DNA of 24,300 bases. It comes from a virus. The notes beneath the pieces were generated by a model. That model saw only the letters and a list, made by a program, of their open reading frames with translations, was not told the origin of the DNA and made no database searches. The stretch spans positions 1 through 24,300 of IMG/VR virus record IMGVR_UViG_3300027782_004850. One strand, given 5' to 3'. Positions within the stretch are counted from its first letter, which is position 1. Each line of letters starts with the position of its first letter. The position numbers and the translations under genes are program-made. This document shows positions 1-22,810 of the stretch, piece after piece.

Positions 1-1955
1 TATGCATCGACACTATAGATATTTATAAACAAAATAGAATTAGATACTTTTCTCCTCAATTACATGATCCAAATTCTCCATATAAATCATTACCTTTTGC
101 TTATCCTATTTCTACTTTGGGCGGGTTTGATGATAGCGGATCATCTTGGGTTCCACCAGCTGGAAGCACAGTTATGCTTCTATTTGAAGCTGGCAATAGG
201 TCGGTAGGTTATTATCTTGGAACAACTTGGTCTAGGGATAGAGGACCAGACGGTGAACATAAGTTTCCTATACCCATACCTGAATATCAAGAGGTTTACG
301 AAGGCAAAAGAAATGGATACCTGTGTGGCCCAAATGATGGATCACAAGTTCTCCCTCCATGGAATACTGAAAACTATAACGGATTTGATATTACCAGCAT
401 TCAAGATTTAGAAAATAGCCCAAATGCATCTAAAAGATTGACCTATCCTAATATTTATGGTTTTAAAACGCCAGAAAAACATATGGTCAAGATGGTAGAT
501 GGAGATGCCAAATGTAATCGTAAATGGAAAAGATTGGAAATCATGTCAGGGAACGGCAACTGGATGATATTCAAGGACGATCATCTTCACTATGCTGGTC
601 AATGGGCTCACCCATATTGTGGGGTTCGTTCTGGAGACACTAGTTGTGTTGAAGGAGTTCCCAATCCTGCACCAAGAAGTGCAGAAGATGTAACATTATT
701 CTCAAATTATGCCAATGTAGATATTATTCCAGATGAAGTTGATATTTTAAATTTTCAAACTAAAAAATCAGAAGATCCTACATGCAAAGGAGCAATAATT
801 GGTGGCAATCCTGATTATCAGGGTAGAAACAAACAAGTTGGATCAAATCCTTTTTTCAAGAATGCAAATGAGTGCCGTCCATACAAAGGACCACAAACAC
901 CTCAGAACAACAGATGCGATTTGCCACAATCTGGTGTTCAGATATTATCAATTTCAGGTCATACGCTTGTTATGGACGATTCTGTAAAAGACCCGCAAGG
1001 CAATATGGACTGGAACAGAAGTCTGAAACCATTCGATTTTGGTTGTACAGACATGTATATGGGCAGAACATACTTGAAATCTGCTACTGGGCATACAATA
1101 GAACTTAACGACCTTGAAAAAGGTGGAGACACTAAACAGACTCGTGGTCCCAATAATGGTATTAGATTGAAGTCTGCTTTAGGAAACGAAATATTTTTAT
1201 GTGATGATTCGGAAGGACCAAACTGCCCATCGCCAGCTACGGAAAATCAAGGTGTTTTAATAAGAAGCACCAGCAACAACATCATCAAAATGTCAGATAA
1301 AGGAAATAAAAGACCAATTCCGTGTCGAAAAGAAGGTGCTGCGCCATTAAACCGTGCGAGTTTTGGTTATATTGTTGTTCGTACAGGATACGGTATGACA
1401 TTGGATTTGGTTGATAATGGCTCACAGGAAAAAACCCAATTTCAATACATGCGGTTGATTTCTCCTCAGAGAGACAACAAGAAGCGTGGGCCACATTTCC
1501 TGTTATTTTCCGAACAACCAACTGGTCCGGGTACAGTTTATTTAAGGGCTGGTGGGAATCTGATTCAGTCAAGCTGTGATAATTCCGTTGAATTTGTTGG
1601 GTATGAACAAAAAGATGGGAAATTTGTCGATAATCCAGCTAGCAAAATTACTTTTGTATCAGACAAAAAATATGAAAATATAAAAGACTATACATACACA
1701 GGTGCCAATAGAGTTATTTATAATGCAGAAAGAGATATAATATTACTATCTGGAAGAGATTATGATTTACCACCTGACAAGAATGGCAAGTCTCAAGGTA
1801 AAGGTCCGGGCTGTTTTCCTGTAGTAGTGTTTGTTCCCGGAAAAAACGGTGGTGGAATATTGAAAATAAGTGACAGAATATTTGCAAGTTGTTCTCCACA
1901 AGCTCCGACTGTATCCATATATAACATGAAACCATATGTTAATGTGAAAAATTAA
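1..1955 (+). CDS. Baseplate hub / tail spike protein, gp5/gpV-like (5' end outside window)
   Basis: This is a partial gene. The reading frame is open from base 3 without a stop, and the residues before the TTG at 117 (RIRYFSPQLHD, then LPFAYPISTLGG) fit the gp5/gpV OB-fold that continues into WVPPAGSTVMLLFEAGN. That TTG is therefore internal and the true start lies upstream. After the OB-fold come a segment of the type TPEKHMVKMVDGD/KDDHLHYAG and a run of imperfect strand repeats near bases 942-1425, such as SATGHTIELND and SALGNEIFLCDD, resembling the beta-helical stem of gp5/VgrG-type spikes. By family analogy it forms the central membrane-piercing spike under the tail tube. No lysozyme domain is visible in this part. 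It is cysteine-rich for a phage spike (14 Cys in the last 612 residues). The next gene starts 8 bases after its stop. The family call is fairly sure; exact domain borders are not. Confidence 0.8.
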   Translation, partial: CIDTIDIYKQNRIRYFSPQLHDPNSPYKSLPFAYPISTLGGFDDSGSSWVPPAGSTVMLLFEAGNRSVGYYLGTTWSRDRGPDGEHKFPIPIPEYQEVYEGKRNGYLCGPNDGSQVLPPWNTENYNGFDITSIQDLENSPNASKRLTYPNIYGFKTPEKHMVKMVDGDAKCNRKWKRLEIMSGNGNWMIFKDDHLHYAGQWAHPYCGVRSGDTSCVEGVPNPAPRSAEDVTLFSNYANVDIIPDEVDILNFQTKKSEDPTCKGAIIGGNPDYQGRNKQVGSNPFFKNANECRPYKGPQTPQNNRCDLPQSGVQILSISGHTLVMDDSVKDPQGNMDWNRSLKPFDFGCTDMYMGRTYLKSATGHTIELNDLEKGGDTKQTRGPNNGIRLKSALGNEIFLCDDSEGPNCPSPATENQGVLIRSTSNNIIKMSDKGNKRPIPCRKEGAAPLNRASFGYIVVRTGYGMTLDLVDNGSQEKTQFQYMRLISPQRDNKKRGPHFLLFSEQPTGPGTVYLRAGGNLIQSSCDNSVEFVGYEQKDGKFVDNPASKITFVSDKKYENIKDYTYTGANRVIYNAERDIILLSGRDYDLPPDKNGKSQGKGPGCFPVVVFVPGKNGGGILKISDRIFASCSPQAPTVSIYNMKPYVNVKN

Positions 1956-1963
1956 GAGGAGTT

Positions 1964-2383
1964 ATGGATTTATTAGCAGCACCATTTCCAATCGTTAAAA
2001 ACCCCCTTGGTCTTTTGGCTCCCGCCACAGGGCTAAGAGGAATCAAGGGGGATTTAATTCAGCTGCTTTTAACAAACCCCGGTGACAGAGTGATGTTGCC
2101 AACCTATGGCACACCATTAAGAAGGCTTGTGTTTGAACCAAATACATCAATGCTTGCTGACAACGCCAAGTCTGTAATCATACAAGCTATAAACCAATGG
2201 GAACCAAGAATTGTTGTTGAATCTATCGATGTTGAAAACAGCGCAGTTAACGCAAATCTTCCTTCTGGAGACCCAAAACAAAACCTTGAGAGTTTTTTGT
2301 ACATAAAAATAAAGTTTAGCACCTTTAATAATATTGATGTAGTTGAAGATTTAACATTGCAAGTACCAATAGGCGAGGCATAA
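1964..2383 (+). CDS. Baseplate wedge protein, gp25/gpW-like
   Basis: This 139-residue protein matches the GPW/gp25 family in length and pattern. It has the segment LLLTNPGDRVMLPTYGTPLR (residues 34-53), then LVFEPN, and the hallmark Glu-Pro-Arg (residues 80-82) inside NQWEPRIVV. In T4 and P2 these proteins are small wedge components that resemble sheath subunits and are thought to seed sheath assembly; that role is assumed here from the family. A strong AGAGGAG lies at 1955-1961, only two bases from the ATG. The gene sits between the spike and gpJ-like genes exactly as W sits between V and J in P2. Its last codons (Gly-Glu-Ala) carry the ribosome-binding sequence of the next gene. Confidence 0.9.
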   Translation: MDLLAAPFPIVKNPLGLLAPATGLRGIKGDLIQLLLTNPGDRVMLPTYGTPLRRLVFEPNTSMLADNAKSVIIQAINQWEPRIVVESIDVENSAVNANLPSGDPKQNLESFLYIKIKFSTFNNIDVVEDLTLQVPIGEA

Positions 2384-2384
2384 G

Positions 2385-3938
2385 ATGGCAGATACATGTC
2401 CTTTTGAAATTCTACCGTATAAGTCTACAAATATACAAAATCGCCCTACGCCAGTAAATCTTAATTATACCAATCAAGATTTTTGGTCCATGAAGGCCAG
2501 ACTTATTAGTTTTATCAAAGAAAGATTTGGAAATGAGTTCAACGACTTTGTTGAATCAAGTCTTGCATTGATGCTTATAGAAAACTGGTCTTTTATAGCC
2601 GACACTTTATCTTTCAAAATCGATCAAATAGCCAATGAAGTTTTTATTGATACAGTAACGGAAATCGAAAACGCATTTAGGCTTGCCAAACTAGTTGGCT
2701 ACCAGCCCATGCCACCGATTGCCAGCAAATGTATGTGGACAGCAAGAATCAATGCTCCTCAAAACATTGACTTGGTAATTCCAACACCTTTCGATGTAAA
2801 CCTAGTCAATAATGGTGCTGGCATAAATTTTGAGCTTTTCCCAGCAGATGTTTTCAATAGACCAATTTTAGATCAAGATATTGTTATACCTGCTGGAGCT
2901 ATCACTAATTCAAACATAGTTGGAGTTGAAGGCCAGACATTTACAGATACATTTGTTGGAACAGGAGAGATTAATCAAAACAGTCTTCTCAATTTCAGAC
3001 CTGTTTTAATGGATTCAATTAGGGTTAATGTTGATGGCCAAAGATGGGAGCAAGTACCATTCTTTACGGACTCCCAGCCAAGACGAGAATACCGCATAGA
3101 ATATACATCCGATTACAGCGTTTTTGTTATTTTCGGCAACAATCGTGCGGGTCTTATACCTCCAGCTGGTGCTGTAATCACCGTAACATATCGTGTTGGA
3201 GGTGGAACAAATGGTAACATAGTAACTAATTTTGCCAATGTTGAAATCCTAATACCAATTGAAGGACAAGATTTTAGTGTGCTGGTAAGCCTAAGTAACT
3301 ATACCCGTGGTGAATTTGGATACAATGGTGACACAGTAGAAGATATTAGAAGAAAACTTCCTAATTACAATAGAACTCAGGACAGGGCTGTAACCGGGGG
3401 TGATTACAAGACCTTGTGCGATAATTTTGTTACTCCCTACAACGGAATCATGGGCAAATCTATTGCTGCTTTAAGACACAACGGGTGCGCTGCTAATATT
3501 GTGGACATATATGTTTTAGTCAAGGAAGGAGACAATGGGCTGACCTTGGCTTCATCTCAATTCAAAGCGGAGCTTACAGACTTTATTAACACAAAGAAAA
3601 TGCTCACAGATTTTATCTGCATTAAAGACGGAGTTGTAGTCCTTACGAGTGTTTCCATAGATGTTGTTTTAGACAAATACTACAGGACATTTGAAGAAAA
3701 TATCAAGGCTAAAATAGAAAGAAATCTCACAGTATTTTTCAATTTGAATAACTGGGATTACGGTCAAATTTTAAGAAGTACTGATATTATAAAAGCTTTG
3801 TCTACTATCCCTGAGCCTTACCGATATGAGGTAAACTTAACAACTTCTGATCCTAATAATAGTGGTTCACAAGTTACAACCAAGTTTTACGAAATAATAA
3901 GACCGGACAGCACCCAGATAGATTTCCAGTATGAGTAA
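2385..3938 (+). CDS. Baseplate wedge protein, gp6/gpJ-like (Baseplate_J family)
   Basis: The 517-residue protein carries the marks of the gpJ/gp6 family: an N-terminal helical region (about residues 33-110, with SSLALMLIENWSFIADTLS and the FRLAKLVGYQP turn), the FGNNRAGLIPPAGAVITVTY plus GGGTNGN core (residues 250-278), and DRAVTGGDY (333-341) preceding the C-terminal alpha/beta part. In contractile phages this protein forms the wedge dimer ring that surrounds the hub and opens on triggering; the function is taken from the family. The start follows GCGAGG (2373-2378) with a 6-base spacer. Only one base separates it from the gp25-like stop. It is followed after 9 bases by the gpI-like gene, keeping W-J-I order. 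Confidence 0.9.
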   Translation: MADTCPFEILPYKSTNIQNRPTPVNLNYTNQDFWSMKARLISFIKERFGNEFNDFVESSLALMLIENWSFIADTLSFKIDQIANEVFIDTVTEIENAFRLAKLVGYQPMPPIASKCMWTARINAPQNIDLVIPTPFDVNLVNNGAGINFELFPADVFNRPILDQDIVIPAGAITNSNIVGVEGQTFTDTFVGTGEINQNSLLNFRPVLMDSIRVNVDGQRWEQVPFFTDSQPRREYRIEYTSDYSVFVIFGNNRAGLIPPAGAVITVTYRVGGGTNGNIVTNFANVEILIPIEGQDFSVLVSLSNYTRGEFGYNGDTVEDIRRKLPNYNRTQDRAVTGGDYKTLCDNFVTPYNGIMGKSIAALRHNGCAANIVDIYVLVKEGDNGLTLASSQFKAELTDFINTKKMLTDFICIKDGVVVLTSVSIDVVLDKYYRTFEENIKAKIERNLTVFFNLNNWDYGQILRSTDIIKALSTIPEPYRYEVNLTTSDPNNSGSQVTTKFYEIIRPDSTQIDFQYE

Positions 3939-3947
3939 CGAGGAGTA

Positions 3948-6900
3948 ATGTCAATTTTATATTACAACAATCCGAAGGTAACTGACCAGATTGAATTTGA
4001 TTTTTATACGCCTGATGCAGATGGGTGCTTCTTTGCTGATCCATATGCCGTAGAAAACATAAAAGTCTACTTTGTAGAAAGAAATCTAAATGGTGTTAAA
4101 AACACATTGAATTTGGTTGATCAGTTTGATGTAGTAAAACAAAAAGAGTATCTGGATGCACAACAACTTGCTTGTGACTATCCTACTGAAACAAACATAG
4201 CAAATGCCTTTAAATTAAAAAAACAGTTTGAAGCAACAAGTATTTTTAACAGCACTTGGTATACCCAAGCAAATGTGATTTTTAATGTAGGGAATGCTAT
4301 ATCACCAATATGGACAGCAGCTGGCCCAAACACAGATTCAATTATTTCCAAAATTACTGGAGTAGCAGGTTCAATACAAAATGGTCACTTTAAATTTGTC
4401 TGGTCTCCAAACGGAACAATTAGAGAAGGCGACTTTTATCTTTGTTGGACTTGGGCTCCAAACCTTGCTGGAGATAGATTTTCTAACTACTTGCATTTTT
4501 ATGTTAACAGTAATATATCAAACGAAGTAACCAGTCCTGCACATGTTATTGATCCAAGTAAGTACAAAAATATTCTAGATTCATATCTTCCAGAAATGTA
4601 TAAGATGTCATATGCAAATAATGACTTGACTGTTCCTACGCTTGATCGATTGAACTATTCTATTGGGGACGGATTTACCGTATTAGATAATCTTGGAATA
4701 CAACTTGTTGACATTACAGATGCAAATGCAACTCAGGAACCAATATTAGGTCATTTGGCTAGTTTCTTCGGAATGCCTCTCAGATCATCTGATGTAACTT
4801 TATGGCGTAGACAAATAAAAACAGCTATCCCATTATGCAAGAAAAAAGGAACATTAGAGGGCTTGAGAGAAGCTCTTTCCAATGCAGGCATAGGTCTTCT
4901 AAATTACTCGCAGCTATGGCAATGTAGAACAAGTGCAGTCTTTACAGAGACATTTGAGTTTAACGGAAGCTACAGTTTTATCTTATCAAATGTTTCTTTG
5001 GACCCAACCAATCCAACATATACTCCTTTCTTCAGTTTAGAAAAAAGAAATCCATTTGATACCGTTGACACAAGTTATCAGACAGAAAGCTTGTCTAACA
5101 TAACAATATCTACCAGCGGTGGTGTAAGCACCATGGAATGGACTGGTGCAGAGTTAGAATACGATCATTCTACTGAAGTTGGAGAAGTAATCAAAATTAC
5201 TTATCTTCTTTATTTGCCTACAGGTGGCGATTTAACAAAATATAATATTATAAAAGATTTACCTTTAGCTGATTTAAGAGATGATAGAAACTTTAAATAT
5301 CCACCCAAAGACTGGAATACAAAGGTAATATCAGAAGACAATTCAGATTTCAGCACAGTTGTAACGCAAAAAAATCCTTTTGTTGATTATCTGTATTTTG
5401 GAAAAGTAAGAACAAAATTCCCATATTCAGAAAATGTTTACAACATGGATGAATATAACGGCTCATTGAGAGATTCTCAAAGACCTTGTGATATCGACAA
5501 AAATTTCATTGAGCCTTGTAGCAATGGTATAAGTGCTAAATTTTCTTTAGATGTAGAAATTAGTAATTTATCAGATGACAGAATTACAGAGTGCCAAAGT
5601 ATCACAAATGAATTTACTCCAATGCACTCAATATTGCATACTTTAAACTTTACTGGTAAATTTGAAGACATTATCTTGCCTCCAATAGAACAATATGAAG
5701 CATTGGTGCAATACAATCAGGAAGAATATTGCATAGCTGGTATGGCTCAATATGTTTTTAATAGAGCCATGTACTTAGGATTGAATCAAAATGCAGTTTA
5801 CAGGAATGAACTGGCAACACAATGGACTTGGGATATAATTGAAGGAACACAAGCATTCAATCAAGCTATTACACTTTTTTGCTCTGATGTTAACTTCCAG
5901 ACCTTGGGAGTTAGAAATATTGATACCGAGACATTGTTGGAAGTACTGTCTCCGTCTCCGAATTCAGGGGAATATCATGTCCAGAATCCGAATTCAAGCT
6001 ACATAGATGTTTCGCAAACCATACCAGTTAATGAGAGTCCAAGTTTAAATAAATCTACTTTCACATTCAGATTGTCAAACATTAATTTAGCTGATTCAAA
6101 TTTTACAGCTGTTCAAGCAAACATGTACAAATTGAGTGACACCACAGTTACGCTAAGTGACTATGCAATCAAGACAATTTGGGATGTTAATAATGGATAT
6201 GCTGCTCAGGCTTGGCAAGTTATTTTGCCTACAGGAACATACGACATTTTAGATATGCATGATGATGTTTTAATCATCGACAATAATGGAACATTGAGCA
6301 ACACCTCGGCTACAGGAGTAACTTGGTCTTTGATAAGCCCAACAGCTACTGAATTAACATCCAACTATGGAGATTATGTTGTTGAAATATATGGAAAAAT
6401 TACTCTTGACCCAAGCCTTAACTATAACAATGTTAATAGCATAATAGATGGAAATGGCTATTTTTATCTAGACTCATCATCTGATCAATTCAAGTTCTAT
6501 AGTTATGTTGATGGTGATAACCAATCATTCTTGGTATATGATTGGAACGGTGGTGCAGGAACAATAGCTGGCAAAATTTTAAAACGCCTTGTAGATGGAA
6601 AAACTGGCAATTTTGGCTATAGGGGCATGATGATTAGAGCTTTGCCCGGATGGCCGGTTTTTGACGATCCTGCTAGTGCTGTAGTTGACAACAACAATTT
6701 CATTTGGAATTACTTGGTTGCACAATATTTTGTTGCTGTTCCAAAACTATATGCAATTACTGAAGTTATGACAATTGGTCCTGATAATTATTGGGTTCTG
6801 GATGGGGCTTTGATTGATTATGGAGTAGCAGCAGGAACTCCGACAACTTTTCAAATTTTTAGATATTCAAAAGAATCCATACAATTATTTGGAGAACAAC

Positions 6901-7094
6901 TTTACGATGTGAGTCGTTTGGGACAAGAAATTTATGATTATGCTGTAGATTACTCCTTTAGCATGATGGAAAGGAAATCAAGACTTGCCATGAAACAAGA
7001 AGAACCAGCAGTAAAAGATAACATAACGCCACAGGAATTCATAAATATAAAAATAGAATATGCAGACGGTCGTATTGAAACAGGAGAGATATAA
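3948..7094 (+). CDS. Large baseplate protein with a gpI-type (Tail_P2_I) domain
   Basis: The protein has 1048 residues. Residues 1-190 look like a beta-rich domain ending in FVWSPNGTIREGDFYLCWTW and HFYVNSN. Residues about 205-320 resemble P2 gpI: ILDSYLPEMYKM, then LASFFGMP, WRRQIKTAIPLCKKKGTLEG and REALSNAGI. P2 gpI itself is under 200 residues, so roughly 700 residues of unrecognised, probably beta-rich sequence have been added after the domain. gpI joins the baseplate to tail fibres in P2-like phages, and the position right after the gpJ-like gene fits that. The C-terminal 90 residues look helical (YDVSRLGQEIYDYAVDYS). The start follows AGGAG (3941-3945). The stop overlaps the next start by one base. 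Baseplate membership is well supported; the role of the long C-terminal part is unknown. Confidence 0.75.
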   Translation: MSILYYNNPKVTDQIEFDFYTPDADGCFFADPYAVENIKVYFVERNLNGVKNTLNLVDQFDVVKQKEYLDAQQLACDYPTETNIANAFKLKKQFEATSIFNSTWYTQANVIFNVGNAISPIWTAAGPNTDSIISKITGVAGSIQNGHFKFVWSPNGTIREGDFYLCWTWAPNLAGDRFSNYLHFYVNSNISNEVTSPAHVIDPSKYKNILDSYLPEMYKMSYANNDLTVPTLDRLNYSIGDGFTVLDNLGIQLVDITDANATQEPILGHLASFFGMPLRSSDVTLWRRQIKTAIPLCKKKGTLEGLREALSNAGIGLLNYSQLWQCRTSAVFTETFEFNGSYSFILSNVSLDPTNPTYTPFFSLEKRNPFDTVDTSYQTESLSNITISTSGGVSTMEWTGAELEYDHSTEVGEVIKITYLLYLPTGGDLTKYNIIKDLPLADLRDDRNFKYPPKDWNTKVISEDNSDFSTVVTQKNPFVDYLYFGKVRTKFPYSENVYNMDEYNGSLRDSQRPCDIDKNFIEPCSNGISAKFSLDVEISNLSDDRITECQSITNEFTPMHSILHTLNFTGKFEDIILPPIEQYEALVQYNQEEYCIAGMAQYVFNRAMYLGLNQNAVYRNELATQWTWDIIEGTQAFNQAITLFCSDVNFQTLGVRNIDTETLLEVLSPSPNSGEYHVQNPNSSYIDVSQTIPVNESPSLNKSTFTFRLSNINLADSNFTAVQANMYKLSDTTVTLSDYAIKTIWDVNNGYAAQAWQVILPTGTYDILDMHDDVLIIDNNGTLSNTSATGVTWSLISPTATELTSNYGDYVVEIYGKITLDPSLNYNNVNSIIDGNGYFYLDSSSDQFKFYSYVDGDNQSFLVYDWNGGAGTIAGKILKRLVDGKTGNFGYRGMMIRALPGWPVFDDPASAVVDNNNFIWNYLVAQYFVAVPKLYAITEVMTIGPDNYWVLDGALIDYGVAAGTPTTFQIFRYSKESIQLFGEQLYDVSRLGQEIYDYAVDYSFSMMERKSRLAMKQEEPAVKDNITPQEFINIKIEYADGRIETGEI

Positions 7095-7573: not shown

Positions 7574-7605
7574 TCTAAATTTTAATATTAGGAAGTGAAC
7601 ATATT

Positions 7606-8454: not shown

Positions 8455-8460
8455 TTCTCT

Positions 8461-8993: not shown

Positions 8994-8998
8994 TTTTA

Positions 8999-9643
8999 AT
9001 GTCTGATGATAACAAGTTGGAAGAACAGCTTAATGCTTTAACGGAAAAACACAAAGTTCTTCCTAAACATACTGATTTTCAAATAGAACATTTTATGCTT
9101 GGCAAGGAATCCACCACAAATGGAAAATTGTGGCAATGCATTCGTGAATTGAATTCTAGAAAAGAAAATTTATCAGCTGTTAATTTAGAAATAGAAGAAA
9201 CAAAAGATAACCTTGAATTGGCGAATTTAAAACTAGAATACTTTAAAAATAAGACAACATTTCGTAAAAATATTGCTTTAGAAAAAATCGAATCCAAAAA
9301 GAAAGAAATATTAATACGAAAACATGAGAGAAGATTGAAAAGCCTCGAAAATTCCCTTCCAAAAGTATTTGAAAGAAAAGAAGCTATTTTAGCTGAATGT
9401 AAAAAAATAATTGAGGTTTTTAATAAGTATAATCCAGATAATAAAGCCATAGATATTGATGACGAAAAAAATCAACTTGAGTATTGGAATTCAAGATTAA
9501 TGGAAGAAATAAATTTGAGTTCTATGTGTGGAGTGCCACCTAGTGTTGAACTTATTAAGTCCATCCTTGCCATGCCTAATGATTCCAATGTTAAAATTAA
9601 ACTTGGAAATGCTATGGCAGGGGCAAAAAAATTACTAAATTGA
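8999..9643 (+). CDS. Coiled-coil protein of the tail operon, 214 aa, function unknown
   Basis: ATG 8999 is chosen because of the GAGG just upstream; the frame also stays open back to 8969. The product is charged and mostly helical. A short N-terminal part contains THTDFQIEHFMLGKE-like sequence (residues about 24-38), followed by a long Lys/Glu-rich coiled coil (about residues 45-145) and a C-terminal Gly/Pro-containing helix region (CGVPPSVELIKSIL; AMAGAKKLLN). No transmembrane segment or catalytic motif is seen. Its location between fibre-like genes and the adhesin paralogues suggests an assembly chaperone, a scaffold or a structural connector. I do not recognise a named family. Confidence 0.6.
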   Translation: MSDDNKLEEQLNALTEKHKVLPKHTDFQIEHFMLGKESTTNGKLWQCIRELNSRKENLSAVNLEIEETKDNLELANLKLEYFKNKTTFRKNIALEKIESKKKEILIRKHERRLKSLENSLPKVFERKEAILAECKKIIEVFNKYNPDNKAIDIDDEKNQLEYWNSRLMEEINLSSMCGVPPSVELIKSILAMPNDSNVKIKLGNAMAGAKKLLN

Positions 9644-9656
9644 AATAACTAAACTT

Positions 9657-10676
9657 ATGGCTAGTAAATTAACATCCTACGACATTGGCTACTTACCCGG
9701 AGACTTATCTCTTTATCCACAAGCGATAGATAGTTATGACAATCTATATGAAGCTAAAAATTTAGCTTCGACTGTTCTGACACAAAATTTTGGCTTTAGT
9801 GGCAAGATCATGGTTGTGGAGGACACAACTAATTTTCCGGCTCAAGGCATCATTCGTGTAAGTATGCCCAACTATGAGGGCTTGACAAGTGAAATGATGT
9901 ATTATTCCACAAAAACTAATAATACATTTCAGAATTTCATACGAGGTTTTTGTGCTACAAGACAGAGTTCATGGCCTGTTGGCGCTAAAGTAGAAGCTGG
10001 CGTGATGGCTGAACATCACAATTCTATAAAAGATGCGATTCTGCAAATAGAGGCAAATCTAGGCACTTCAGATACTACCGATACTACGACTCTAAATGGT
10101 TTGTTGAAACAGCAGGAAGCAAAATACTTGGCTCCCAAAGCTCTTTTCAGAGCGTACCCTCTTAAAGGCCCATCACCATTAACTGTCAATTTCCATAATT
10201 TTACATCGTCTGTCGCAACAAGGTTCTTCTGGGATTTTGGTGATGGCGGCAGTTCTTACGATAAGAATCCATCTCATACATATTTGACAGAGGGCAATTA
10301 CACAGTTCAACTGCGTGTTATTACAGAACTTGGTGGACAAGGTTTTTCAACAAAAACAAGCTACATTCAGATTTCCAATGAATATACTGATCCATTCTTC
10401 TATGTTAGTCCAACCATTGGTTATTCTCAAGAATATGTAGATAAGAATGGTGGTAGTGTTACTAGTTTCACATTTATAGATCAAACAAATGCACAAATAT
10501 CAAATAGACTTTGGCAGTTTGATGACGGAAACAATTATTTTGCTGTTGATCCATATGAGCATGTTGTAAGTCATAGCTATCAAAAAGCCGGTACATACAA
10601 TCCATCGATCTTGATTGGACTGGAAGGCCAGCAAGTTCTAAGAGTATTCAGTACGCAAGGAATTACGGTGTTATAA
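9657..10676 (+). CDS. Adhesin paralogue 1: AEHHN anchor module plus two PKD-like domains
   Basis: The protein has 339 residues. Residues 1-140 form the N-terminal module shared with the three later adhesins: a strand pair with GIIRVSMPNYEGLTSEMMYY, an IRGF/GAKV segment and the helix VMAEHHNSIKDAILQIEANL (AEHHN at 118-122). Residues 161-240 are a PKD domain with the signature FFWDFGDGG, then SHTYLTEGNYTVQLRV. Residues about 246-339 are a second, weaker PKD-like domain (RLWQFDDGN, then VSHSYQKAGTY). PKD domains are Ig-like spacers common in surface and phage fibre proteins. There is no distal head, so this may be a short fibre or a connector. No clear ribosome-binding sequence precedes the ATG. 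Its stop overlaps the next start (TAATG). Confidence 0.75.
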   Translation: MASKLTSYDIGYLPGDLSLYPQAIDSYDNLYEAKNLASTVLTQNFGFSGKIMVVEDTTNFPAQGIIRVSMPNYEGLTSEMMYYSTKTNNTFQNFIRGFCATRQSSWPVGAKVEAGVMAEHHNSIKDAILQIEANLGTSDTTDTTTLNGLLKQQEAKYLAPKALFRAYPLKGPSPLTVNFHNFTSSVATRFFWDFGDGGSSYDKNPSHTYLTEGNYTVQLRVITELGGQGFSTKTSYIQISNEYTDPFFYVSPTIGYSQEYVDKNGGSVTSFTFIDQTNAQISNRLWQFDDGNNYFAVDPYEHVVSHSYQKAGTYNPSILIGLEGQQVLRVFSTQGITVL

Positions 10677-12925: not shown

Positions 12926-12942
12926 TGATAAATACTTGCAAG

Positions 12943-12948
12943 AGAAGG
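12943..12948 (+). promoter_or_regulatory. Ribosome-binding site supporting TTG start at 12956
   Basis: AGAAGG at 12943-12948 lies seven bases before TTG 12956, in a gap of 30 bases after the previous stop. The paralogue beginning at 21766 also starts with TTG at the same protein position, which supports this unusual start. Confidence 0.6.
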
Positions 12949-12955
12949 CAATAAA

Positions 12956-14000
12956 TTGGCTGTTCCGTTTCCCCCTAAAGTTGTATACCCAATAGATTAC
13001 GATACAGATCGTACTCTTTTTAAGGTTTATAATACCTCAGAAACAGTTTTATCAGCTGACTTGGAAGTTTGGGCAACAACTATAAACATCGTTCCAGTAG
13101 ATTTAGATAAAGACGAAATTTGGGCTGAAAACGGGTTTGTCACTATCAGCGGAGAATTGATTTACTACAATTCTTTCACTAAAGATACCAATGGTAAAAT
13201 TCAATCACTAACAAACTGCATTCGTAATCTTGGTGGCAAGTCTCCTCAATTCAACTTGTCTGGAACTGATGTCCGGGGTTTTGTTCTTGCAGAACATCAC
13301 AATCAATTAGCACGGGCAATAGTAAATGCTGAAAACTTCTTTGGAATCAATCTTTCAGAAGACAAAACAACACTTGACTGGAGGATACGCAATCTCGCAA
13401 ATCAAGGAGCCATAATTGATGATTATGGCTGTCCCGAAGTTAATTTTAATTATTACATCATTTCAGAAGATATTTCTGTTGGAACAACTATTGCATTCAA
13501 TCTTGAAGTAAATGGAACATTTGATAGTTTTATCATAGATTTTGGAGATGAACAGTCAACCACTACTGTTACTGGTGGAACACACACATATGCACCGAAT
13601 TCACTAGTTGACCCTGTTGTAACAGTTACAGCGACAAATTGCGAATCAGTTTTGAGCGGAGTAAAAAGAGAAACCCTCAACCAACCTCTAGCGCAGCAGG
13701 CCATTATTGACCTAAATGTTGCTGTTCCAACTTTACCAGAGTTTCCTAATCTACCTTCTGTTTTCACAAATACTGTAAATAATCAATTACTTTTACCTCC
13801 TATAGTTTTCCCATGCCTAGACCCAGTTGGATTTGGACCTATTACTGTTCCTTCAGTAATTAAGATTACACCTCCATTGATTATTCCAAGTATAGTTAAC
13901 TTCATTAATTCTCCTAACATTCCCAGCACAGTTAGCATCAGTCCAGTCAGCATTAACCTTCCTAGTTACATATATGTTGAAGGATTGTGTTCTCCTATTC
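12956..14000 (+). repeat. Paralogous segment A, homologous to 21766-22810
   Basis: The first 345 codons here match the first 345 codons of the gene at 21766 at protein and DNA level. Examples are [64 protein letters not shown] and TVSISPV. Many differences are in third codon positions, which suggests duplication followed by purifying selection. The copies are direct repeats about 8.8 kb apart. Exact identity was not computed. Confidence 0.8.
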
Positions 14001-17000
14001 CTCCAACTCCATTTCCTCCCATTCCTTTGCCTCCTACCCCGACACCATCCCCGACACCATCCCCGACACCTACCCCGACACCATCCCCGACACCATCCCC
14101 GACACCTCCATCTCCAGTATCACCATCTCCAGTATCACCATCTCCAGTATCACCATCTCCAGTATCACCATCTCCAGTATCACCATCTCCAGTATCACCA
14201 TCTCCAGTATCACCATCTCCAGTATCACCATCTCCAGTATCACCATCTCCAGTATCACCATCACCTATACCACCGACACCTCCAAGTCCTATATCTCCTG
14301 TTCCTCCGGGCACACCCATACCTCCATCTTCTCCAATTCCGGGGCCTCCCGTGGCCCCAAATGCACCGGGAACACCAACAGCACCGGGGGCACCGTTGGC
14401 ACCGGGAGCGCCAGCTGCACCGTTTGCACCTGTGCCGTGGCCACCTGTAGCACCTCCGATTACACCTCCTTCTCCAATCCCACCATCCCCACCATCTGGA
14501 GGCTCGTATTCCTGTAGCAGGTATGGGTATGTTGGAGGAGGAAGCAGCGATGGCACTAATTGTTTAAATAATATTTTCAAAGTAGATTTTACTAATGATA
14601 CTGCATCTCTTGTTGGAACGGCAACTTTATATCAATCCGCACAAGACTTGCATGGTATAAGCGGAGCTTTTACACAGGGATATTTCTCTGGTGGAGCTAG
14701 CAATGCACTTACTACCAGAACAAATATTTTTGATTATGCATCTGAAACTCGTGCCAATCTTGATGCATCTGATTTGAATCGCTATAGAGGGTTTGGTGTT
14801 TCTGATGGTGCTTATCGTGGTTATGTTGGTGGTGGATCAACAGTATATTCTGGTGCATCTGTAAAAACTACTATTCGCATAGTCTACAGCAACAATGTTG
14901 TTTCGCAAATATCATCTTTAGAACTTCAAGAACCAATAACAGGACTTACTGGGAGCGATGGAGGAACACTTAAAGGATACTTTGCTGGTGGGTATACAGG
15001 TTCTTTGATAGCAAGAATTAATCAAATTAGTTATCAAAATGAAATACTTTCTTCTGCACCCGGAATTCTTTCCCCGGCTCGACAATATACCGCTGGTTGC
15101 TCTGGTACTGAAGCTAAAGGCTACTTGTCTGGAGGATTTAGTTCGACATGGAGCCAGTATACAACTATTTTAATTCACAATACAGGAAATACAGTCACAA
15201 AAGCTACGGCTGACTTAGGTTTTGGCATTCAAAGAGCAGCTGGCCTAACAAACAGACAGTCAAGAGGATATTTTGTAGGTGGAGAGGCAAATGGAGGGTT
15301 TGGAGGATTAACTCTGGGAACTTTGAATATTATTATGTTCTCATTAGATGCTTCTTTTGCTGCTTTGACATCTTTGCCATCAGGAGCCATTCGTCAAGGA
15401 ATGGGTGCTATTTCACCACTCTGCCGACCTTTGGGTGGTCCGGGTGGATTTATCGCTGGTGGTTCGTATGGTTATGATGGATTTATATCTAGCTATTCTA
15501 AGACAACAGACAAAATTGTTTTCAATTACGATACTACTGTAGCTGTGACATCTGCTGATCTAAAATCTTCACCAACTCGTCGTGAAGCAACAGCAGGTGT
15601 TTCTGGAAACTCTTCCAGAGGATACTGGGCTGGAGGCTATGCAGATAGATTTACATCCGTAATAGATAAAATTTATTATAGCGTTGAAAGAACTGTAGCT
15701 GTTGGAACGGCTGTACTTACTGATGGAACACATGGTGCTTGTGGCGTTTCACAGGGTGCTTACAAAGGAATTATAGCTGGAGGGTACAGAAAAACTGGTA
15801 CTGTAACTACTAAACACGCTTTCAAATTAACATATGCAAGTCCCGAAACGCTTAGTGCTGTAACGACAGCAGATTTATACGAACCTATGTCTTACATGGG
15901 TTCGATATCAAACAACCTTTATAAAGGTTATTTTGCGGGTGGCATAAATGAAGTAGTTCGTTATGGATCAATGCAAGTAGTAGCGTTTTCAAGTAATACA
16001 ACTTATTTGCTTGCATCTAAAAACCTTACCAGAGCAGTATCTGAACTTGCTGGAATGGATGCTGACAATACTAAAGGATACTTTGGTGGCGGTGATACAT
16101 CTCCTTACGGATCATCTAATGTAATTGATAAGTTTGATTTTGCAACTGACACAATTACTGCAACAGCAAATATTGATAAATGCCTTTCAACGGCAAGAAC
16201 AGGTTTGGGAGCAGTTTCTGAACGAGTTTCTAAAGGTTATTTTGTTGGGGGCTCATCTGGTGTGTTAAAAGATATTGGGACATGTGATAAAATAACATTC
16301 GCAACAGATATTACTAATGCAACTTTATCTGGCAACCTTACTCAATCAAGGACATATGTTGCTGGTGTGTCGGCTGTTGTCAGACCAACAATGTCTTCGG
16401 CTGGAGCCTATTTTACTGGTGGATACCGCAGCAGTAATCCAACAGTACTGACAGAAAAAATAGTTTACCAAGATGATATTAGCTTTTATTTAGAAAGCGC
16501 AAACCTATTAATTAGAAGAGCTAATGCAGCAGCTATTAGTGAAAGTGAATATTATGGATATATCTGTTCAGGCAATTTATCAGAGTATGGAGATACATCT
16601 TTAACCAATACATTTGAATATATTGACTATTCAAATGATACAAGAGGTTTCATTGGCAGTAGCGTTATTGGCCAAACAAGAGAGTCTATGGCTGGCTGCA
16701 CAGGCAACGATACACATGGATATTTTGCAGGTGGCCAGACAACAACATTTAGTTCTAGAATTGATAAATTTAGCTATGAAACAAATGCTTGCAATCAACT
16801 AACATCAGAAACATTATCAAGTGCAAGATCTTTTTTAACAGCAATTTCAAGCGGATACAATAGGGGTTATTTTGCAGGAGGATTAAACACAGTTACTGTT
16901 TCAACAATAGAAAGTATTCTTTTCAGCACGGATGTAGTTTCAACAAATTCGAGTGTAATTCTAGGTGGCCCAAGATGGGGGTTATCAGGTAATGATGGAG

Positions 17001-19228
17001 ACTCTAATGAAGGTTATTTTGCTGGTGGCATTCAATCTGGAAATATTGTTAATTTTGTAGAATCTTTATCTTATTCTTCTGGAGAACTTAGCTCCACTTT
17101 GAGTGGAACTCTAACCACACCTAGATACAATTTAGCATCTGCAACTGATGGTCAATCTAAAGGATATTTTTCTGGAGGTGCCTCTAGTAGAAACATGGCA
17201 TCTGCTATGTCAAGCATAACAGAAGGATTTATCTATGCAACGACATTGCCGATACAAGGCATAGCAACCGCTGCTTTGACTGTACCTAGATTTGGACTAG
17301 TGGGCATGTCAGGGATAAGAAATCTTGAACAGGCACCAACTTGTGGAAATTTATATACAAATGGATCATCTAATTTCTACACCAAGATATTCAGCTATCC
17401 AGAATTTGACGGACTTGTTGAATTTGAATACAATGCTTACAATTCTCCAGATAGGTTTATTGTTTCCGATATATTCAATAATGTTTTTATTGATACTGGG
17501 TATGTTGGTACAACAACAACTGGTTGTCCTTCATGGGTTGAAGGTGCGATTGGAAACTATCCTAACACAGGTAATTTTGCATTCGCTAAGCCATCTGAAG
17601 TTCGAAGAATAAAAGTTACAGTTCAAAGTCCTTGTGCAAATATTGGCTGGGATTATCAGTTATCTTGCCTACAAACAAATCTTTACACTAGCGGGTTAGC
17701 ATATGGAACATATCAGCTTAGAAGGTATGGTGAAGCTGGATTCTATACAAAAATAGCTCCAACTTTTAGTGCTGAAAATTATAATTACGCAATAGATTAT
17801 GTATCAGACCTTTATTATGGATTTTATTTGAGTGAAGAAGACTATCCATTCATATTTGCAGAAAATGGAGTTTGGAAAGAAATAAGCACAGGTACTGGAC
17901 ATTTCATGGGAATCAGAAATGTTCCTAATGGATTCAATAACATATTGGTCGTTGAAGGTGATAACACTTACGGGCAACTTGGACTTGGAGACAATGTTTC
18001 AAGAAATACCTTGACTCCAACAAACACTACTGCCACAAAATTGGCACTTGGTGCATTTCACAGCATGTGTATTGACTTGGCTGGAGGTTTACAAGTTTGT
18101 GGATTCAACAATCTTGGACAGCTTGGAAAAGGTAACACACAAGACTACAACATTTGGCAACCACTTTTAACTGGTGTGAAACATATTGCTGCTGGCGTTT
18201 TCACAAGTTTTTATATCAACAGTTCCGGGCAACTATACGGAACTGGAGCAAATAGTTCTGGCCAACTTGGAATCGGACCTACACTATCTGTTAGCCTGTT
18301 TACACAAACAGGTACAGGCGCAGGTTATTGGGCATCAGTTTCTGCTGGACAAGATCACACTTTTGCAATTAAAACCGATGGAACGATGTGGGCTACTGGA
18401 AAGAATGATCAAGGTCAACTAGGTCTAAGTGATACTAATAATAGATCAGCATTTACACAAGTTGGAATTGATTCTGTTTGGGCCAAAGTATCCTGCGGTC
18501 TTACTCACACCATGGCAATAAAAACAGATGGCTCACTTTGGGCTACAGGAGATAATAGCCAAGGTCAATTTGGAAATTCAAGTATAACAAGCACCTCAAG
18601 ATTTGTTCAAGCAGGATCGTTTAAATGGAAAGAAGTTTATGCTGGAGACAAAACTACATTAGCTCTTCGAGATGTTGGAATTACACAGCCTTCCATAACA
18701 GTAAATGCAGATTATTTTATAATTCAATATAATTTTGCACAAACTTCTGGTACTGATTTGGACACATCTACAAAATTAACATATCCAACAACTGAAGGCC
18801 CTCTGGGGTTTAGTTGCACAAATACTGGCTCTTCTACCTATATGGAGTGGGGTGGAGACAATACCGGAACAGGTATAGAGTCTGTATTAATTAAAATAAA
18901 AGATATCAGGCGAGATTATCCAAATGCCACATACATAGACTTTTTATGTGCATGCCATTGGTTTGGTTCAAGACTAACAGGCGACATTTCTCTTGATATT
19001 AATGCATATCGTGGAGGAACTCCACAAAAACAAGGTTATGGTTTTGTTATTAATAATGGAACTCTTTTGGACACCTTGCGATTCCCAGATAATATAACAA
19101 AAAGATATACTGGCTGTGATAGCGCACAAGTGACTGGCGTTATACGATATGATTTAGTGACAGGTGAAATTTCTCGATTGCCGACAAATTCTTCAGCACC
19201 GGGAATTCTATTCGTAGCTTGGGATTAA
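12956..19228 (+). CDS. Giant multi-propeller adhesin / tail fibre, 2090 aa (adhesin paralogue 3)
   Basis: Domain order by residue: 1-165 shared anchor module (AEHHN at 112-116); about 166-230 a PKD-like domain ([15 protein letters not shown]); about 255-345 strand-Pro repeats ([15 protein letters not shown]); 346-515 a Pro/Ser/Thr/Ala linker with tandem repeats; 524-1458 eighteen GYFxGG repeats of about 50 residues in three blocks of six; about 1459-1575 a beta-sandwich-like domain ([31 protein letters not shown]); about 1638-1905 five or six RCC1-like repeats ([15 protein letters not shown] and relatives); about 1911-2090 a C-terminal beta-rich domain ([24 protein letters not shown]). It starts at TTG 12956. 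Such repeat proteins serve as host-recognition fibres in phages; that role is inferred. Its closest relative is the 798-aa product encoded after the protease. It has no frameshift and no signal peptide. Confidence 0.8.
14039..14110 (+). repeat. Six tandem 12-bp repeats coding Pro-Thr-Pro-Ser/Thr
   Basis: Units start at 14039, 14051, 14063, 14075, 14087 and 14099. Four read ccgacaccatcc; the third ends tacc and the sixth ends tcca, overlapping by three bases into the next repeat array. The length is a multiple of three, so gain or loss of a unit keeps the frame. It codes a stiff linker in the giant adhesin. Confidence 0.9.
14108..14257 (+). repeat. Ten perfect 15-bp tandem repeats coding Pro-Ser-Pro-Val-Ser
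   Basis: The unit ccatctccagtatca occurs ten times without a mismatch, followed by a degenerate eleventh unit at 14258-14272 (Pro-Ser-Pro-Ile-Pro). Perfect conservation, including wobble bases, points to recent expansion by slippage or recombination. The copy number changes linker length by five residues per unit without a frameshift. There are no spacers, so this is not CRISPR. Confidence 0.95.
14273..14505 (+). repeat. Pro/Ala/Gly-rich low-complexity tract within the adhesin linker
   Basis: The coding is Pro-rich with many Pro-Gly and Ala-Pro pairs (for example [19 protein letters not shown]), and it is visibly richer in G and C than its surroundings. It continues the linker after the perfect repeats and ends at the Ser-Gly-Gly-Ser-Tyr-Ser-Cys that opens the first propeller block. 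It probably is an extended, flexible or polyproline-like spacer. Confidence 0.8.
14525..15445 (+). repeat. Propeller block 1: six GYFxGG repeats
   Basis: Repeats begin at GYVGGG, GYFSGG, GYVGGG, GYFAGG, GYLSGG and GYFVGG. The sixth ends in an atypical seam ([13 protein letters not shown]) instead of the usual short polar link. The block has about 307 residues. It is read as one six-bladed beta-propeller-like domain; the blade count is inferred from repeats. Confidence 0.7.
15446..16405 (+). repeat. Propeller block 2: six GYFxGG repeats
   Basis: Repeats begin at GFIAGG, GYWAGG, GIIAGG, GYFAGG, GYFGGG and GYFVGG. The block ends in a second atypical seam ([14 protein letters not shown]). It has about 320 residues, similar to the other blocks. 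Confidence 0.7.
16406..17330 (+). repeat. Propeller block 3: six GYFxGG repeats
   Basis: Repeats begin at AYFTGG, GYICSG, GYFAGG, GYFAGG, GYFAGG and GYFSGG. The block ends with [14 protein letters not shown] before a different beta-sandwich-like domain. The second repeat has the most degenerate motif. Confidence 0.7.
17870..18672 (+). repeat. RCC1-like repeat domain in the giant adhesin
   Basis: About five complete repeats contain the Gly-Gln-Leu/Phe-Gly motif ([50 protein letters not shown]), each after a strand of the type [21 protein letters not shown] partial final repeat ends near TLALRDVG. This is the RCC1 pattern and predicts a further beta-propeller. Eukaryotic RCC1 has seven blades; here five or six are seen. 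Confidence 0.85.
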
Positions 19229-19231
19229 AAT

Positions 19232-21763
19232 ATGCTAACAGAAGAACTAAAAACAGAGTTGGAAAAACAATTTGACGAAACACCTGATTATGTCATAGGT
19301 GTAAGTTATGGTTTTAAAAAAACAAATGGTCAAAAAACTAATCAAAAATCAATCATTTATAAAGTTTCAAAAAAGAAACCTCTTGGAGAAATACCAAAAA
19401 ATGAAATCATTCCAGCATCAATAAAAGTGAATGGGAAAGAATATGTCACGGATGTTGTTGAAGGAACAAAAGCACAATTTTTCAACTGCTTCGTATCAGA
19501 ATCTGACCCAAGCATTCAAAGATTACAAGGAGTGCCAAACCTTCTTGCTCCGATGCGTGGAGGCAACGAAATCGTTCTTATGCCAGATGGATGGAGCGGT
19601 CCCACACTAGAAAGCTCTGGCTACACAGTTGGCACATTAGGATTTTTTGCGGTTGATAATTATGATGATAAGGTTGTTGGTGTTACTAATAGCCATGTTT
19701 CAGTATTAAATAGAGTGTTTTGTAATGAAAGAAACATAAAAGACGAAGACCCCAATCCATATAACACGGTAGACCCAAGACCTTGGGAAAATATTCTGCC
19801 AGATTTAGAAATCGAGCCAAAGTGTGCTGTCTGGAACAACACGAATCTATTAGATGCATCAGCAAACATAAAAAGATATATGCCAGTAACAGCAATAGGA
19901 AGAAATTATATTGACTGTGCCTTGTTGGTTATGAACAAGGATACTTTGCCTGCAAGCGCAACAGCCTATATTGATTCAACAAGTTATCAAGTTTGGCAAC
20001 CTATAGGAGAACCAGATTATCCTACCCACATGCCTTTTGCCACAAAACAAGAACTTGATAATTTATTAACAAGTAATCCAAATCTTTATTCTACTGGTAG
20101 AACAACAGGTCCAAAGGGATGGTCTCCTGTAAGCAGCTGTATTTTGCGTGTCACAGAAATCGGAGTCAACGAAACCATCGGTGGTTTAGAGGGAGATACT
20201 TATTGGTCAGATACAATAAAATTCCAATATGAAGATGGAGTTGGTTACCCGGCAAAACCCGGAGATAGTGGAAGCGTTGTTATAGCTGATTTTAGTGGAG
20301 TCAGAAAAATTGTTGGACTTTTATTTGCTGGAAATGAAACGGAATCTTATGGCCTATTTTGCAGAATTGATCGTTTAGCTGCGATCATGAACATTCGGGC
20401 TTGGGATTCCTCTTATGTTCTGGACAAGTCGTATTCAACAAAAACAGAAATAGTAGTTACTCCTGAAGCAAATCTTGGAGGAACCCCTAATTTTGTACAA
20501 AATGGAAAACATTTCTGGCAATCTGGATTTAGGTATATAACAACTCCAGCTGGATATACCCCCACACCGACACCGACACCAGCACCTGTGGTAGTTAATT
20601 GGCAAAATTGTATAAATGACATTAACAATAACAGAATAAGACGAGTTTGCAGTATGCCATGGCTAGGACCTGAGTTTCAAACTGGGTATTTCGACAGCAG
20701 CCAGTCGCAAATAAATGCGAGCTTCGTGCCGGGCGTGGGTGGCCCTGCCACCTTTCAAACTTCCATAAATTTAAATTGTTGTCTTGTTCCTACAGGAGCG
20801 ACAGCAGGTGTGAGTCAATTACAAATAGTACCGATAAATGATTTTTATTATCAAATTCATACAGGAGGCGACTCTATAACATTTCGACCAGTAATTTATG
20901 CAAACAATTTAAGGGGAACTATAGAGTTTATATCATCAACTCCATTTGTTTGTTCTATAGAACCTACAGAAAGATGCCTAGGATGGATTTTTCAAGCCGC
21001 TGGCGGCAATCCCAAAAAATTTACTTTTAATACGAGCGATGTCAGAACAATACCTTTTGTTTTAACTTTTTCGGGGAATAATGTTAATCTAACAATTCGG
21101 ATAGTTGATGGAGGGGCCCCAGCCGGTGGGATAATAGGAAGTATCGCTCTTTATTACATATCTAATATTTTGACTAATCTATCATTAAATTTATCTGAAC
21201 CTAATCAAAGTGTGCAAGAAAATAGTAATTCTGGTTATATTCCATCTATTTCTATGCAGAATGTGCAGTCTAAACAAAAGCTATTGCCTTCTAGTGTTTC
21301 AACTCGTACTAAACTTTGTCAATATGCAAGTAAGATGCCTTTGGAAGTAATTGATAGTTATCATGGAAAAACAGCAATAAGAAGATGCGACATTTATGGT
21401 TTTTGCTCACATTCTATCAAGATACCTGATAGACCTGAAGTCTATTCATGTCAGGAGTGCCCAAATTACTTCTCAAACGAAAATGTTCCAGAAGAACTTC
21501 TAATTTTTACAGACAAAAACCGAGAAGAAACAATTAAAATCATGAATATTAATAATCAGCAAGCTCCTGAACAGAGCTTGTATCAAGAAATAAAATATAA
21601 AAAAGTAGAAGATTTTCTTAAAAAAGAAGAAAAAAATACCTTTGAAGTTGAATACAAAGACCTTACTGAAGTATCTGAACAAAATTTAAAAGATATGAAT
21701 GCTATGAAGATCAAACCAATAGATAATATAAAGCCAAATGTTGATGAATTACTTGGAGAATAA
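19232..21763 (+). CDS. Virion-operon trypsin-like serine protease with Cys-rich C-terminal domain, 843 aa
   Basis: Residues 1-80 match the leader module of bacterial trypsin-like peptidases (YVIGVSYGFKKTNG, IIYKVSKKKPLGEIP, TDVVEGT). Residues about 130-390 hold a chymotrypsin-fold protease with a readable triad: His155 in VTNSHVSV, Asp228 in NYIDCALLV and Ser346 in KPGDSGSVV. A Pro-Thr linker (443-452) leads to a beta-rich region (about 455-645), then a Cys cluster (Cys696, 719, 725, 740, 743) that may bind metal, and a charged helical tail ending ELLGE. There is no signal peptide. It lies between two propeller adhesins, so cleavage of host surface protein or maturation of a fibre are the likely roles; both are inferred. 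GGGA at 19221-19224 is a weak ribosome-binding site. The protease assignment is strong; its location in the virion is not shown. Confidence 0.85.
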   Translation: MLTEELKTELEKQFDETPDYVIGVSYGFKKTNGQKTNQKSIIYKVSKKKPLGEIPKNEIIPASIKVNGKEYVTDVVEGTKAQFFNCFVSESDPSIQRLQGVPNLLAPMRGGNEIVLMPDGWSGPTLESSGYTVGTLGFFAVDNYDDKVVGVTNSHVSVLNRVFCNERNIKDEDPNPYNTVDPRPWENILPDLEIEPKCAVWNNTNLLDASANIKRYMPVTAIGRNYIDCALLVMNKDTLPASATAYIDSTSYQVWQPIGEPDYPTHMPFATKQELDNLLTSNPNLYSTGRTTGPKGWSPVSSCILRVTEIGVNETIGGLEGDTYWSDTIKFQYEDGVGYPAKPGDSGSVVIADFSGVRKIVGLLFAGNETESYGLFCRIDRLAAIMNIRAWDSSYVLDKSYSTKTEIVVTPEANLGGTPNFVQNGKHFWQSGFRYITTPAGYTPTPTPTPAPVVVNWQNCINDINNNRIRRVCSMPWLGPEFQTGYFDSSQSQINASFVPGVGGPATFQTSINLNCCLVPTGATAGVSQLQIVPINDFYYQIHTGGDSITFRPVIYANNLRGTIEFISSTPFVCSIEPTERCLGWIFQAAGGNPKKFTFNTSDVRTIPFVLTFSGNNVNLTIRIVDGGAPAGGIIGSIALYYISNILTNLSLNLSEPNQSVQENSNSGYIPSISMQNVQSKQKLLPSSVSTRTKLCQYASKMPLEVIDSYHGKTAIRRCDIYGFCSHSIKIPDRPEVYSCQECPNYFSNENVPEELLIFTDKNREETIKIMNINNQQAPEQSLYQEIKYKKVEDFLKKEEKNTFEVEYKDLTEVSEQNLKDMNAMKIKPIDNIKPNVDELLGE
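20563..20589 (+). repeat. Short Pro-Thr linker repeat in the protease gene
   Basis: The hexamer ccgaca/ccaaca-type repeat codes Thr-Pro-Thr-Pro-Thr-Pro between the protease domain and the C-terminal half. The same ccgacacc core is used in the 12-bp repeats of the giant adhesin. Confidence 0.7.
21755..21758 (+). promoter_or_regulatory. Ribosome-binding site supporting TTG start at 21766
   Basis: GGAG at 21755-21758 lies inside the last sense codons (Leu-Gly-Glu) of the protease gene and seven bases before TTG 21766. No in-frame ATG is available near this position, and the paralogue at 12956 also starts with TTG. Confidence 0.65.
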
Positions 21764-21765
21764 TT

Positions 21766-22810
21766 TTGCCTATATTACCGCCAAATTCAGTATATCCAAT
21801 AGACTACGATACTGATAGTACGCTTTTCAAGGTTTACAATACCACAGAAACCACTCTGTCAAGCGATTTGAGCGCATGGGCAACTACGATTAACATAACT
21901 CCAATTGCCGCAACTGACGATGAAATATGGGCTGAAAATGGATATGCTACAATAAGTGGAGAATTAATTTATTACGATGATGTACAAAGAGATGGCAACC
22001 AAAAAATAAATGCACTTATTAATTGTGTCAGAAACCTTGGTGGCAATGCTCCTCGATTTAATGAGTCAGGAACTTGGATCAGAGGATTTGTTTTAGCCGA
22101 ACACCATAACAACCTTGCCAGAGCAATAGTCAATTCAGAAAACTTCATAGGAATTAATCTTTCACCTGATAAAATAACGCTTGACTGGAGAATAAGAAAT
22201 CTTACTCAACCAGAATTTGTTGATGACTATGGGTGTCCTCAAGTAAATTTTATTTATTATATCACAGATATAGACCCGCTTCTTGGGACAACAATATCTT
22301 ATTTCTTAGAAATTATAGGTGTTTATGATAGTTTCATACTAGAATTTGGTGATAATACACTTACTAATTCCGAATTATCTGGAACACATATTTACCCCCC
22401 GAATTCAACAATAGACCCAACAGTAACAGTTTATTCCGCATTATGCCAAACTGTAAATAGTGCAGTATCCAGAAATCAACCAAATGAACCGCTTATTGCA
22501 GTTGTTCCAGATGAACAAAACATAACGATTGATCCAATTGCTGATTTCCCAGATTTACAGTATATTACTGATCCAAACACATCTGCCGATCTTAATTTGC
22601 CACCTATTGTTTTTCCATGTCTTGATATTGGTCCGTTTGGTCCTATTAATATACCTTCGACTATTATCATAGACCCTCCTTTTATTATCCCAAGTCAGAT
22701 TATGTTTAGCAATATACCCATAATTGCAAACACAGTTTCTATCAGCCCTGTTAATATTGAGGTTGTTGGAGATCAGTTTATTGAATTAGTTTGTATTCCA
22801 TTAGGTAGTG
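21766..22810 (+). repeat. Paralogous segment B, homologous to 12956-14000
   Basis: This is the second copy of the anchor, PKD and strand-Pro region described for segment A, in the same orientation. Together the copies bracket the propellers, the RCC1 domain and the complete protease gene. Confidence 0.8.

Follow-up and report, generated by a model that had tools for sequence, protein, structure and literature searches.

Among the described systems closest to the protein analysed here is rice NAL1 (PDB 7y77, 8pmi, 8pmm), a plant cellular enzyme composed of an N-terminal domain and a trypsin-fold protease; a maize NAL1 homologue is a demonstrated protease and degrades a corepressor (PMC12915138). 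In phages, proteases are common in virion maturation (PMC7824862), and a survey of alphaproteobacterial phages lists a trypsin-like serine protease with the genes that T4-like Sinorhizobium/Rhizobium phages share, no tail role being stated for it in the part of that source used here (PMC10783043). The words protease, proteolysis and trypsin are absent from a review of the enzymes by which tailed phages breach cell barriers (PMC6116005). The enzymes known from phage adhesins mainly cut polysaccharides; a protein-cutting enzyme on the host-binding apparatus has rarely been described, and the phage analysed here may carry one.

The window, i.e. the whole stretch of 24,300 nucleotides that was analysed, is a 24.3-kb IMG/VR virus contig in which a contractile-tail baseplate operon is followed by anchor-bearing adhesin genes (please refer to Table 1 for the coordinates of all features). 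Compared along its whole length with the wedge of the uncultured 595-kb phage LR756511.1, the gp6-like wedge protein shows 45% identity, and with any other listed record it shows less than 31%; the window phage is a relative of LR756511 and is a very large freshwater phage. Related wedge proteins are encoded in at least 287 IMG/VR stretches, which points to an abundant group of very large phages. That a trypsin-fold protease with a catalytic triad is encoded inside the adhesin operon is well supported. The initial annotation had placed its gene between two propeller adhesins sharing an N-terminal anchor, and this arrangement was recovered: the anchors of adhesins 1 and 2 are 55% identical over 373 aa, and the propeller-type repeats are RCC1 in the upstream and Kelch_3 in the downstream protein.

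Table 1. Positions of the baseplate, adhesin and protease features in the window.
Feature	Position	Strand	Content or basis
Baseplate genes	3..7094	+	Pfam/PHROG matches
Phage_base_V injector	3-1955	+	
gp25 (GPW_gp25)	1964-2383	+	
gp6-like wedge	2385-3938	+	PHROG E 7e-32
Tail_P2_I	3948-7094	+	
Adhesin 1, 2090 aa	12956..19228	+	Anchor, Pro-rich hinge, GYxGG/kelch-like repeats, RCC1 propeller, terminal module
Terminal tail-protein module of adhesin 1, residues 1915-2090	18698..19225	+	phrog_24956 E 5e-24
Split point	19226..19231	+	TAA stop and one codon, then protease ATG in frame
Protease ORF, 843 aa	19232..21763	+	NAL1-like protease, Pro-Thr linker, module of residues 454-672, adhesin C-terminal domain
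NAL1-type N-terminal domain, residues 1-83	19232..19480	+	Fold alignment with NAL1 from residue 1; weak PF25608 match
Chymotrypsin-fold protease domain, residues 111-391	19562..20404	+	Alignments, predicted fold
His155	19694-19696	+	Triad residue
Asp228	19913-19915	+	Triad residue
Ser346	20267-20269	+	Triad residue
Pro-Thr linker GYTPTPTPTPAP, residues 441-452	20552..20587	+	Translation
Module of residues 454-672	20591..21247	+	No homologue found
Adhesin C-terminal domain, residues 673-843	21248..21760	+	Homology to the C-terminus of relatives' adhesin 1
Adhesin 2, 798 aa	21766..24162	+	Same N-terminal anchor, kelch-like repeats, C-tail ending NELLGE

Residues 1-399 of the protease ORF are, by sequence comparison and structural modelling, a NAL1-like trypsin-fold serine protease with predicted peptidase activity. 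The triad read from the sequence in the initial annotation is intact (His155 in TNSHV, Asp228 in YIDCALL and Ser346 in PGDSGS), with the NxH, D and GDSG contexts conserved in the family, and was invariant across 9 sequences of bacterial, archaeal-virus and phage origin as well as across 56 aligned sequences from viral contigs; in a 136-row alignment, the His was present in 136, the Asp in 134 and the Ser in 132 rows, half of the exceptions being gaps. Single-sequence profile scans were weak (NAL1_N, E 0.07; phrog_20754 'protease', E 3e-10), and the score against PF25608 (NAL1_N) was 13.4 bits, below the curated gathering cut-off of 27 bits. Therefore, the protein is called NAL1-like, a diverged homologue rather than a member of PF25608. 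The family was recognised by bridging via a Rhizobium plasmid protein, and a profile of the viral family compared with the PDB returned rice NAL1 (E 8e-17), followed by the streptogrisins and alpha-lytic protease. The AlphaFold model (pTM 0.70) displayed pLDDT values of 80-95 across the N-terminal domain and a large part of the protease core, residues 1-80 being at 81-95, and low values for the inserted loops. Its residues 1-399 aligned with NAL1 over 301 residues (Z 25.6, rmsd 3.4), other S1 proteases aligning with residues 111-393 only (Z ~15), so that the protein shows the arrangement of the NAL1-like family, in which a NAL1-type domain at the N-terminus is followed by a chymotrypsin double-barrel protease domain. 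The N-terminal segment taken at first for a typical peptidase leader is thus a real region under another identity: because the model matches NAL1 from residue 1, it is a NAL1-type N-terminal domain. Like rice NAL1, the phage protein joins an N-terminal domain to a trypsin-fold protease; however, only 18% of the aligned residues are identical, and the phage protein, unlike rice NAL1, has longer loops, the Pro-Thr linker and two further modules.

The protease was compared with that of L002, a close relative among the IMG/VR contigs, to which it is 87% identical. The dN/dS of this pair is 0.063 at a dS of ~1.2 and is low throughout the domain, indicating strong purifying selection. In the family tree, the branch of the window and L002 measures 2.67 changes per column, so the donor of the protease cannot be named. 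Other protease classes were considered and dropped: prohead maturation proteases (S77/S78-like) gave no match in Pfam, PHROGs or NCBIfam, the S74 intramolecular chaperone autoprotease of tail fibres (PF13884) none in the protease ORF, adhesin 1 or adhesin 2, and a picornain-like C3 protease matched at E 0.1.

The linker and the extra C-terminal domains noted from the sequence alone are both present, and the latter include a domain that forms the C-terminus of the upstream adhesin in relatives. Residues 673-843 of the protease ORF consist of a Cys-rich part (C696-C743) and an acidic tail with the motif EYKDL...KIKP...DELLGE, and are 46% identical to residues 2043-2207 of the first adhesin of L115 (2207 aa; 6457-13080) and 36% identical to the C-terminal domain of that of L116 (2028 aa; 6290-12376). 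In these adhesins the domain, of identical type, follows the RCC1 propeller in one chain with no protease, unlike in the window. A C-tail profile built from seven relatives, with the window excluded, matched the protease ORF with 50 bits (E 3e-15) and adhesin 2 with 23 bits, adhesin 1 not being among the matches listed. In the nearer relatives, intact anchor-bearing adhesins likewise terminate in a C-tail of this kind; in more distant relatives they terminate in other C-tails that resemble one another. Among all loci compared, the Cys-rich domain was found elsewhere only in L115/L128 and L116/L129, plus a weak match to the tail part in G004, and the same Cys spacing was confined to these cases. 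The 3048-aa anchor-bearing adhesin of G004 (L117, 2033-11179) has an end that weakly matches the same C-tail.

Adhesin 1 of the window can be aligned with the L115 adhesin until the RCC1 propeller ends (residue 1914 vs 1860), continues into a phrog_24956 module, which is also present in tail proteins of crAss-like and jumbo phages, and stops without the C-terminal domain. The slot that separates the C-terminal domain from the RCC1 propeller is variable, with ~180 aa in L115 and roughly 140 aa in L116; in the window it holds the module, a stop, the protease, the linker and the module of residues 454-672. The C-terminus of the relatives, together with their slot devoid of protease, indicates the insertion into adhesin 1 of a cassette carrying the protease, at a site before the C-terminal domain; the gene is split by the stop, which leaves the C-terminal end of adhesin 1 within the protease ORF. 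That ORF lacks the N-terminal anchor (~345-370 aa), beginning instead with the NAL1-type domain and giving no match to adhesin 2 there; it is therefore described as a chimera with an adhesin C-terminal domain and not as an adhesin. The sharing of this domain argues for tail association beyond mere proximity. Searches for a DNA repeat at the cassette edges as a possible recombination seed found none, and promoter and terminator scans at the junctions gave results at chance level.

The insertion is, as far as the compared sequences indicate, lineage-limited. Adhesins 1 and 2 abut without the protease in three contigs (G005, G007 and G004), a search of 37 related records, LR756511 in its entirety among them, found no relative of the protease, and close relatives of it were found in L002 alone within IMG/VR and in none of the named phages. 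Contigs whose wedge proteins are closer to that of the window (93-98% identity) stop short of the slot or never reach it. The junction of protease and C-tail is known from one contig, the window; L002 stops at residue 454. The C-terminal half of the ORF had no match in phages, and an AlphaFold model of residues 444-843 had a pLDDT of 36 with no confident fold. As residues 455-843 are spanned by the window alone and the G+C content of the window falls to 0.30 in the last part of the ORF from ~0.38 before, a wrong join of the 3' part during assembly was considered. We regard it as extremely improbable: a single open frame spans the whole ORF, adhesin 2 follows directly as it follows adhesin 1 in relatives, the C-terminal domain is unlike every copy compared (46% identity at best), and the upstream junction is confirmed in the independent contig L002.

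At this upstream junction, adhesin 1 and the protease are separated by the TAA stop and one codon in the same frame, in the window and in L002 alike. Occasional readthrough of the TAA would yield a single chain of ~2,935 residues (anchor, propellers, protease, C-terminal domain), that is, the architecture of the relatives with a protease inside, and would return to adhesin 1 its missing C-terminal domain. However, identity of frame has a one-in-three chance and is shared by the two contigs through descent, no known readthrough signal was seen, and the protease has its own ATG, preceded by GGGA and located where the proteins of relatives begin; readthrough is accordingly judged very unlikely.

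Several features of the flanking adhesins were also recorded. The Pro-rich hinge of adhesin 1 contains perfect minisatellites (window 14033-14262), one with a 15-bp unit in 10.3 identical copies encoding PSPVS and an adjoining one with a 12-bp unit. The repeat of L002 at this site encodes PPTPV instead of PSPVS, for which reason the hinge seems fast-changing in length and sequence. The RCC1-type propeller of adhesin 1 (residues 1665-1906, window 17900-18700; Pfam E 5e-56) adjoins many GYxGG kelch-like repeats. In L002 (4117-9997), adhesin 1 is divided over three ORFs by apparent frame changes, representing sequencing error or a real defect. At window 21748-21768, the LLGE codons and stop of the protease ORF (CTTGGAGAATAA) hold a GGAGAA Shine-Dalgarno-like motif immediately ahead of the adhesin 2 start codon, TTG; the conservation of the LLGE end could therefore be partly translational.

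The wider distribution of the family was surveyed using an alignment led by a bacterial relative; the same genome scan with a window-led alignment returned nothing. NAL1-like proteases were found at no fewer than 514 places in bacterial and archaeal species genomes and in 68 viral contigs, and in two only of 50,697 named phage records (LR756508.1 and Aeropyrum coil-shaped virus). The early expectation that a protease in this position would be uncommon therefore agrees with the named records and is qualified by the wider counts, ten of the viral copies being situated in tail-fibre or tail structural neighbourhoods. Five relatives (L148, L159, L162, L179 and L206) carry an extra C-terminal domain of ~180 aa and adjoin large collagen-like fibre genes on the opposite strand, and five others (L144, L145, L155, L197 and L204) have in common a cluster that includes a virion structural gene and a homologue of the gene at window 7094-7573. 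The L148 group resembles the window in having the protease beside large fibre genes and an extra C-terminal domain, but differs from it in the strand of the fibres and in the kind of the ~180-aa domain, no adhesin C-tail being seen. A NAL1-like protease in a tail locus is thus not unique; its apparent splicing into an anchor-bearing adhesin was seen nowhere else among the sequences compared.

Most viral copies are 300-350 aa long. Stand-alone relatives (phrog_20754, Rhizobium WP_168334978.1, LR756508.1 90232-91161, Aeropyrum coil-shaped virus 25-326) have the same domains and triad as the window protein; however, they measure ~300-350 aa, lack an adhesin domain and in many cases lie outside tail loci. 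The prevalence of such proteins without tail domains among viral and bacterial relatives, and the lineage-limited presence of the gene, would suit a host-directed enzyme, cytoplasmic or freed at lysis, encoded by an accessory gene that recombined into the adhesin with the C-terminal domain as a passenger. We consider this rather improbable, as the frame, cysteines and DELLGE end of the C-terminal domain have all been preserved, the absence of that domain from adhesin 1 would not be accounted for by a pure passenger, and ten relatives are found in tail loci. Further neighbourhoods and fusions were noted in the family: a viral 883-aa protein (L190, 7929-10580) combines a NAL1-like protease with a SpoIID domain (Pfam E 6e-20), and on Rhizobium plasmids (L133, 23-2352, and L138) the NAL1-like gene adjoins a HEXXH 'putative peptide modification' gene, preceded in L133 by a radical SAM gene, neighbours which hint at peptide processing by some bacterial relatives.

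The reading we favour, at a probability a little short of even, is that of a split adhesin: its second subunit, which bears the protease, is presumably displayed on the virion and would cut a host-surface protein. It draws on the intact protease under selection, the C-terminal domain in common with adhesin 1 of L115 and L116, the protease-free slot of relatives and the copies of the family found in tail loci. Under this reading, a NAL1-like protease with its linker and the module of residues 454-672 would have entered the C-terminal variable slot of a tail adhesin and split the gene, leaving the anchor and propellers in adhesin 1 and the Cys-rich C-terminal domain in the protease ORF. Translation from its own ATG would yield the protease as a separate protein, and its C-terminal domain would assemble this second subunit with the other adhesins, which is the weakest step. 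Kept with the adhesins by that domain, the subunit would sit next to the receptor-binding propellers, at or close to the tail tip, and once the phage has bound may trim a host surface protein such as an S-layer, a sheath or a protein receptor. The complete proposal, in which the virion-displayed NAL1-like protease is the distal subunit of the split adhesin and cleaves a surface protein of the host as the phage adsorbs, is advanced tentatively, as a possibility. Against the favoured reading stand the stand-alone relatives, e.g. in LR756508, that sit away from tail genes, and the protease ORF having no N-terminal anchor.

The main rival to virion display is a maturation protease at work within the infected cell or on the tail during its assembly, not necessarily retained on the virion, with the adhesins (e.g. 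their C-tail or Pro-rich hinges) or itself as targets. The signal peptide is absent, as the initial annotation had it (the best 19-residue hydropathy among segments starting in the first 40 residues is -0.29), and this, the co-transcribed position between two adhesins with shared C-tails and the common use of proteases for virion maturation would all fit such a role. However, close relatives have the same adhesins and C-tails and manage without the enzyme, which is therefore not needed for adhesin maturation in general, and a maturation role is held to be unlikely.

For the favoured reading, the split fibre of T5-like phages offers a comparison, since the one-protein fibre of a relative is represented there by two interacting proteins, LtfA and LtfB (PMC4728585). 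The second of these has no virion anchor of its own (PMC4728585), and the protease ORF likewise lacks the N-terminal anchor. The T5-like pair carries no such enzyme and serves as a precedent for the working principle only, with no homology claimed. An adhesin C-terminal domain on a protease under selection provides a concrete, testable case of protein-cutting adhesion machinery, and would suggest a class of function for the viral NAL1-like proteases, a large set that is mostly undescribed and includes some members next to fibre genes. If true, the arrangement would be the protein-cutting counterpart of the polysaccharide-depolymerase tailspikes.
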